64,000 bases of DNA, from the NCBI GenBank assembly GCA_000828835.1, contig AP014633.1, positions 3,906,001 through 3,970,000 on the forward strand. Direction: 5' to 3'. A program made the position numbers and the translations under genes. The stretch comes from Thioploca ingrica (GTDB taxonomy: Bacteria; Pseudomonadota; Gammaproteobacteria; Beggiatoales; Beggiatoaceae). Shown piece by piece: positions 27,331-28,170 of the stretch. The first letter of the stretch is position 1; each line of letters opens with the position of its first letter. Below the pieces are notes generated by a model. That model was not told the DNA's origin and did not search any database. It saw only the letters and a list, made by a program, of their open reading frames with translations.

Positions 27331-28170
27331 ATGCAACTTATGCGTAACCTTACTAAAGCCATTGGTCTTGTTGCGGTTGTTGGTACTTTAGCTGCTGCAC
27401 CACAAGCTAATGCCATGTATGGCATGGGCGGCATGGGTGGTATGTACGGCATGTATCCGATGTACGGCATGGGCATGGGCGGCATGGGTGGCATGAACGG
27501 CATGTACGGCATGGGCATGGGCGGCATGAATGGCATGTACGGCATGTATCCGATGTACGGCATGGGCATGGGCGGCATGGGCGGCATGAATGGCATGTAC
27601 GGCATGGGCATGGGCGGCATGGGTGGCATGAACGGCATGTATGGCATGTATCCGATGTACGGCATGGGCATGGGCGGCATGAATGGCATGTACGGCATGG
27701 GCATGGGCGGCATGGGTGGCATGGGCGGCATGTACGGCATGTATCCGATGTACGGCATGGGCATGGGCGGCATGGGTGGCATGAACGGCATGTACGGCAT
27801 GGGCATGGGCGGCATGGGCGGCATGTACGGCATGTATCCGATGTACGGCATGGGCATGGGCGGCATGAATGGCATGTACGGCATGGGCATGGGCGGCATG
27901 GGTGGCATGAACGGCATGTACGGCATGTATCCGATGTACGGCATGGGCATGGGCGGCATGAATGGCATGTACGGCATGGGCATGGGCGGCATGGGTGGCA
28001 TGAACGGCATGTATGGCATGTATCCGATGTACGGCATGGGCATGGGCGGCATGGGTGGCATGGGCGGCATGAACGGCATGTACGGCATGTATCCGATGTA
28101 CGGCATGGGCATGGGCGGCATGGGCATGGGCGGCATGGGCATGGGCGGCATGGGCATGTATGGCTGGTAA
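27331..28170 (+). CDS. secreted methionine/glycine/tyrosine repeat protein
   Basis: 279 residues. A strong RBS (TAGGAGG, six bases before the ATG) and a clear Sec signal peptide (MQLMRNLTKAIGLVAVVGTL, ending PQANA) precede a mature chain of about 251 residues made only of Met, Gly, Tyr, Asn and Pro plus the final Trp. There is no charged residue and no Cys. Met recurs about every third residue (MYG, MYP, MGG, MNG triplets with MG doublets). Eight units begin MYGMYPMYGMGMGG; most are 31 residues, others 23, 30 or 34. About one residue in three is Met. A terminator follows at 28256-28278. I know of no characterised homologue. Possible roles are Cu(I)/Ag(I) binding (dense MxxM motifs), an oxidant sink through methionine sulfoxide, or a structural sheath/matrix protein. 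Confidence 0.85.
   Translation: MQLMRNLTKAIGLVAVVGTLAAAPQANAMYGMGGMGGMYGMYPMYGMGMGGMGGMNGMYGMGMGGMNGMYGMYPMYGMGMGGMGGMNGMYGMGMGGMGGMNGMYGMYPMYGMGMGGMNGMYGMGMGGMGGMGGMYGMYPMYGMGMGGMGGMNGMYGMGMGGMGGMYGMYPMYGMGMGGMNGMYGMGMGGMGGMNGMYGMYPMYGMGMGGMNGMYGMGMGGMGGMNGMYGMYPMYGMGMGGMGGMGGMNGMYGMYPMYGMGMGGMGMGGMGMGGMGMYGW

Follow-up and report, generated by a model that had tools for sequence, protein, structure and literature searches.

A methionine-rich secreted protein of Thioploca ingrica encoded beside a sulfoxide-reductase-type gene module

Thioploca ingrica encodes a secreted protein in which Met makes up 35% of the mature chain. The gene belongs to a conserved neighborhood with a Tat-exported molybdoenzyme of the DMSO reductase type. 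The most probable function, held with fair but not strong confidence, is that of a Met/Met-sulfoxide substrate pool for this periplasmic sulfoxide-reductase module, i.e., a rechargeable oxidant sink. The genomic pairing with a DMSO-reductase-type enzyme suggests an oxidant or electron sink rather than a copper binder. We infer that the Met residues are the substrate of the enzyme, and likewise infer which way the reaction runs and which oxidants act in nature.

The methionine-rich protein and its relatives

The window analyzed here is a stretch of 64,000 nucleotides (positions 3,906,001 to 3,970,000 of contig AP014633.1), and the host genome is one contig of 4,810,005 bases. The gene and its immediate signals are located as follows (coordinates in the window).

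27331..28170, + strand: gene of the Met-rich secreted protein, 279 aa (sequence; homologues)
27331..27414, + strand: Sec signal peptide, 28 aa, ending in APQANA (sequence; kept in relatives; inferred cleavage site)
27415..28167, + strand: mature Met/Gly/Tyr/Asn/Pro repeat chain, 251 aa, 89 Met (composition count; predicted disorder)
27318..27323, + strand: ribosome-binding site AGGAGG (sequence)
28256..28280, + strand: intrinsic-terminator-like hairpin with a T run

The signal peptide, MQLMRNLTKAIGLVAVVGTLAAAPQANA, has an AxA-type end. The mature chain is composed of 110 Gly, 89 Met, 32 Tyr, 11 Asn and 8 Pro as well as a single terminal Trp, and contains no Lys, Arg, Asp, Glu, His or Cys. Consecutive Met residues are spaced by three (71 times) or two (17 times) positions. 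The segment MYGMYPMYGMGMGG occurs exactly eight times, at spacings of 31, 34, 31, 31, 31, 31 and 23 residues. A preliminary description of the locus had reported a signal peptide, a chain of five residue types plus a terminal Trp with about one third Met in eight units, neither charged residues nor Cys, a ribosome-binding site and an own terminator. All of these are borne out by the counts, the composition and the positions given above. AlphaFold without an alignment returned a mean pLDDT of 39.7 and the mature chain is predicted to be disordered. Such disorder should make the Met residues accessible. The lack of Lys and Arg renders ordinary tryptic proteomics blind to the mature chain, so that missing peptides would not count against the protein.

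The minus strand of the gene is likewise open, as expected from GGC-ATG repeats. The plus frame is considered to be coding based on the ribosome-binding site, the signal peptide, the excess of synonymous changes in an orthologue and the design kept in relatives despite differing repeats. The same-genus orthologue shows 11 synonymous versus 3 non-synonymous differences in 66 codons, with the peptide kept. Substitutions between unaligned repeat units of the gene were uninformative. Conservation in the orthologue and the relatives thus supports the earlier proposal of a real gene.

The protein does not stand alone, with three paralogues in its own genome and many relatives elsewhere. Paralogues L002 and L004 are situated away from dms genes. 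A family-level homologue search matched the Met-rich protein in 16 of 43 Beggiatoaceae genomes, and the relatives keep the signal peptide, which speaks against a non-conserved microsatellite. They have the form of secreted (xGM)n proteins in which x is Y, G, S, N or Q. The repeat varies among them, with the signal peptide and the Met/Gly triplets constant. Judged by these sequence features, the window protein is a member of a secreted (xGM)n family and no lone microsatellite. Met-rich proteins had no matches among Pfam, NCBIfam and PDB sequences. The earlier statement that no protein of this kind had been described hence stands for sequence families, but not for function, as the analogues MrpX and BcrX are known. 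A short hairpin-like motif, YFKITPQGQIFFYP or GWYERYPNGQIVLYP, is found in several relatives, in some cases together with a WVW element. The window protein contains neither the motif nor the element.

A conserved neighborhood around a DmsA-like enzyme

Neighbors of Met-rich genes from different genera were compared all-against-all, which revealed a shared block of genes for a pentaheme cytochrome c, a Tat-exported molybdoenzyme, a 4Fe-4S protein and a TorD-type chaperone. In the loci retrieved with the enzyme as query, the gene order is Small-MET-CytC-DmsA-DmsB-TorD. A histidine kinase and an NtrC-type regulator, pointing away, are often found alongside the module. Downstream of the Met-rich gene, the window contains the following genes.

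29055..29888, + strand: secreted pentaheme c-type cytochrome, five CxxCH (conserved neighbor)
29901..32447, + strand: Tat-exported DmsA-like molybdoenzyme, catalytic subunit (TIGR02166; 1eu1; Ser at the Mo-ligand column)
32466..33152, + strand: DmsB-like 4Fe-4S subunit (TIGR02951, 191.7 bits, cut-off 214.1)
33149..33925, + strand: TorD/DmsD-like Tat chaperone (PF02613, TorD model)
34008-34547: hydrogenase-maturation-protease-like gene, 3' of the chaperone gene (TIGR00072, above cut-off)

Of 25 testable CytC-DmsA loci, i.e., loci with usable sequence 5' of CytC, 24 have a Met-rich gene immediately upstream in the same orientation. These loci come from 22 genera of Proteobacteria that belong to more than one class. 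Twelve of the positive loci fall within the family (the window, L042, L043, L044, L045, L047, L048, L049, L088, L099, L100 and L101) and 12 outside of it, some even outside the class (L073, L074, L075, L081 and L089-L096). For L088 and L101, the Met-rich gene is a fragment at the contig end taken from the family-level homologue search. L082 and L097 were left out as the sequence ends too early. The sole exception is L076 (G164), where the gene order is changed and an OmpA-like protein with the hairpin motif takes the place of the Met-rich gene. A Met-rich neighbor is missing from some second dmsA copies; one second copy in the host genome (L037) adjoins a Met-rich gene. In the window, a gap of 884 bp separates the Met-rich gene from the cytochrome gene, and given its own terminator the Met-rich gene is not clearly in one operon with the cytochrome gene.

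The protein and the enzyme also co-occur at the level of genomes. Among the 43 Beggiatoaceae genomes, 15 encode both, 25 neither, one only the Met-rich protein and two only the enzyme (Fisher p ~1.3e-8). The Met-only genome (G018) encodes a charged KGMEGM type of protein. The enzyme-only genomes (G038 and G039) are incomplete drafts (52% and 87%), and since repeats break draft assemblies, a gene missing from a draft carries less weight. Co-occurrence is similarly found among the sampled genomes of the class that do not belong to the family (p ~1.1e-8). The genomes are related and both p values hence overstate independence, which makes the adjacency across 22 genera the stronger argument. In a sample of 399 genomes of the phylum, Met-repeat matches of at least 70% identity outside the own genome were restricted to exactly the four enzyme-positive genomes. 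Members of the enzyme subfamily (at least 65% identity) were found in 17 of the 43 Beggiatoaceae genomes, in 10 of the 271 further genomes of the class and in 4 genomes outside the class.

The closest NCBIfam model of the enzyme is DmsA/YnfE (TIGR02166), with a score of 583 bits below the cut-off of 777.7. Based on sequence comparison, the enzyme represents a DmsA-related subfamily and not DmsA proper. The subfamily is narrow, with members at 65% identity or above and the next homologues at 37% or below. The best PDB matches are the DMSO reductase 1eu1 and 7l5i, annotated as a trimethylamine-N-oxide reductase. All 36 of 36 members have Ser at the Mo-ligand column. In the alignments, this residue corresponds to Ser147 of 1eu1, the Mo ligand of DMSO reductase, and to the serine of the GDYS motif in Enterobacteria-type DmsA. 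A Ser ligand is the pattern of S- and N-oxide reductases, and Cys-ligated enzymes such as polysulfide reductase differ. Export of the window enzyme is indicated by the Tat motif SRRNFLK and by matches to Tat models. In the subfamily, His replaces the third FS0 Cys, giving CxxxCxxxH...C (protein residues 61-110), and this is kept in the variants listed. The enzyme has SYAG where DorA has SYGW, a motif named as needed for sulfoxide reduction (PMC7402097); Enterobacteria-type DmsA likewise has no SYGW. The sub-cut-off score, SYAG and the His at FS0 mean that the substrate of the enzyme could differ. No DmsC membrane anchor was recognized among the scanned neighbors in the window, where a pentaheme cytochrome gene is found instead.

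Met-rich genes are often accompanied by a gene for a small secreted protein, about 100 aa in length (L035:11167-11532; the alignment holds 18 more sequences). The pattern is WYxxAxxGVxxPYPxSLxFLxxQGxWYTPFxRPGMxGPYDIRxWH, with 18 invariant columns. The small protein belongs to no Pfam or NCBIfam family, and its AlphaFold model is mostly of low confidence (pLDDT 61.5).

Proposed function and competing explanations

The proposed oxidant sink would start with the export of a disordered, thioether-rich chain. At the oxic/sulfidic interface, the 89 exposed thioethers would be converted into sulfoxides by oxidants such as peroxide, hypohalite or reactive nitrogen. The Tat-exported DmsAB-like enzyme, receiving electrons from the pentaheme cytochrome c, would then reduce the sulfoxides back. 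Such a sink could hold up to 178 electrons per molecule (89 Met x 2) if full oxidation is assumed. The preliminary description had listed a reversible Met-sulfoxide sink among its alternatives, and the genomic context favors this idea. DorA reduces protein-bound MetO in vitro with values like those of canonical Msr enzymes (PMC7402097). For E. coli, MetO reduction by DmsABC and an induction of dmsA by hypochlorite and peroxide have been described (PMC12096835). The combination of a Met-rich peptide with a molybdenum MetO reductase is an established design, known from MrpX/BcrX with MsrPQ (PMC8315932).

MrpX of Azospira suillum and BcrX of Brucella share with the window protein the secretion, the Met-rich low-complexity sequence, the envelope location and the absence of an enzymatic domain. 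Their genes also stand beside a molybdenum enzyme of (probable) Met-sulfoxide chemistry, which is MsrPQ (YedYZ) in their case. The window protein differs by its larger size and by Gly/Tyr or Gly/Ser triplets in place of charged MXKDX pentapeptides. The partner here is DmsAB with a pentaheme cytochrome, with msrP/msrQ (yedYZ) not adjacent. A PF00174 (MsrP-superfamily) protein is encoded elsewhere in the genome in 22 of 27 carriers, which in the host genome corresponds to proteins at 2.82 and 4.53 Mb, with the Met-rich gene of the window at 3.93 Mb. Regulation differs as well, with an NtrC-type two-component system here and an ECF sigma/anti-sigma pair there. As the parts differ, the module is best called an analogue rather than a member of the MrpX/BcrX-MsrPQ system. 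The enzyme itself resembles DmsABC, DorA and MtsZ in the Tat signal, the molybdopterin domains, the Ser aligned with the Mo ligand, the DmsB-like FeS subunit and the TorD/DmsD chaperone. Unlike these, it forms a separate subfamily with His at FS0, a pentaheme cytochrome c but no recognized DmsC, and an attached Met-rich gene.

The enzyme might instead respire DMSO or another small sulfoxide, with the Met-rich protein as an accessory, e.g., a sacrificial shield, and not as the substrate. In the literature, dmsAB of T. ingrica and of large sulfur bacteria related to it has been described as encoding DMSO reductases for respiration (PMC5728499). The DmsB, TorD and Tat features are compatible with a respiratory enzyme. 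However, we consider this explanation unlikely, as it does not account for a protein with about one quarter to one third Met beside the enzyme in 22 genera. Enterobacteria-type DmsA is also a distant homologue (37% identity at most), and the window enzyme has no recognized DmsC beside it. DMSO respiration may nevertheless exist alongside the function of the Met-rich protein. For the "DMSO reductases" of large sulfur bacteria, the conserved Met-laden partner points to protein-bound sulfoxide as the substrate. Reduction of protein-bound sulfoxide has a precedent in vitro in DorA, and no dedicated substrate protein was found in the literature searched. A substrate role would also provide a family unrecognized by sequence libraries with a partner and a likely function. 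A further reading sees the protein as more than protection, namely as a solid-state terminal electron acceptor or rechargeable respiratory battery. The chain would be sulfoxidized under oxic or nitrate-rich conditions and the stored sulfoxides respired through the cytochrome and the DmsAB-like enzyme once other acceptors are absent. We regard this as quite unlikely.

Coating of sulfur globules was the initial lead and was abandoned following the gene-neighborhood comparison. The protein would form a hydrophobic Gly/Tyr/Met coat of periplasmic sulfur inclusions. Like SgpA-D and the 15-kDa envelope protein of Beggiatoa, it is secreted, hydrophobic, repetitive and Gly/Tyr-rich (PMC8877833, PMC10386293), and Beggiatoa sulfur is stored in a protein envelope (PMC7356093). 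In addition, dsrA-positive genomes are enriched for the module (8 of 10 versus 76 of 261, p 0.0017). However, 27 of 43 Beggiatoaceae genomes have no match to the protein, and outside the family the module is present in just 8 of the 84 genomes with dsrA. The distribution of the protein tracks the molybdoenzyme and not sulfur storage, for which dsrA serves as a proxy. The globule protein of Beggiatoa leptomitoformis is a 15-kDa protein with spaced Pro. Spaced Pro (P-x2-P) characterizes Sgp proteins (PMC10386293), in contrast to the regularly spaced Met and the 8 Pro in 251 residues found here. A globule coat is thus improbable.

Periplasmic binding of Cu(I) or Ag(I) through Met-x-x-Met motifs had been the leading idea in the preliminary description. 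Met-only motifs can bind Cu(I), as in CTR1- and PcoC-type proteins, and the chain offers 89 Met in MxxM and MxM spacing. The recurrent neighbors lend this idea no support, consisting of a sulfoxide-reductase-type module, a two-component system and a small secreted protein. Genes for copper or silver handling were not found among the scanned or identified recurrent neighbors, a subset of the neighboring ORFs being annotated. The chain has neither His nor Cys, and a DmsA partner would not be expected from copper chemistry. Metal binding is improbable. The least plausible role, also raised early on, is a structural one in the sheath or matrix of these filamentous bacteria: Thioploca is sheathed, the repeats are Gly/Tyr-rich and two relatives have below-cut-off matches to collagen-like adhesin models (from the triplet Gly), but no positive evidence emerged, and genomes that encode relatives include small ones (1.6 to 2.7 Mb) and some outside the class, nearly always with the molybdoenzyme.

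Putative promoter elements and sequence variants

A candidate promoter element precedes the Met-rich gene.

27121..27137, + strand: sigma-54-like promoter element ATGGAATAATAATTGCT (best match upstream of the Met-rich gene, 210 nt before the start codon)

The orthologue from the same genus (L038) has the identical element, and two genomes of a different genus have similar sites at the aligned position (ATGGCATAACAATTGCT in L042). Sites of equal score number 26 on both strands of the window, about one per 5 kb. Given this frequency, the claim of a promoter rests on conservation and not on score. Good matches to sigma-54-like sites are found before many genes of the module, with no good match before the cytochrome gene. 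In the host genome, the response regulator of the module has its closest homologue at 2.85 Mb, with 59% identity versus 38% for the next full-length homologue.

A direct repeat of about 40 bp with the core GACTAACGCACCCTACC is found on either side of the Met-rich gene (26578-26620 and 28505-28550). The genome holds three exact copies of the core. With two of these bordering the Met-rich gene, a transfer or duplication of the 1.9-kb segment is possible. The 64-kb window gave no matches in Rfam and tRNA searches.

Some matches in the wider searches were discarded. A class-level match in G246 (L062) was rejected as a relative, not being Met-rich. A phylum search with an SGM-type query produced many low-identity matches, and those inspected were not Met-rich.

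The hairpin-like motif (YFKITPQGQIFFYP / GWYERYPNGQIVLYP) recurs in L014, L015, L055, L056, L074, L076, L080 and L005. In L076, the motif is also present in both the OmpA-like protein and a cytochrome c beside the DmsA-like enzyme. The genome G018, which lacks the enzyme, encodes a charged (KGMEGM)n protein with a signal peptide (L019 / L052), nearer in character to MXKDX/MrpX. In G014 (L018 / L050), two secreted proteins combine an N-terminal Met-triplet region, SSMDGMKGMSGM, with a long Ala/Glu/Lys-rich probable coiled coil.
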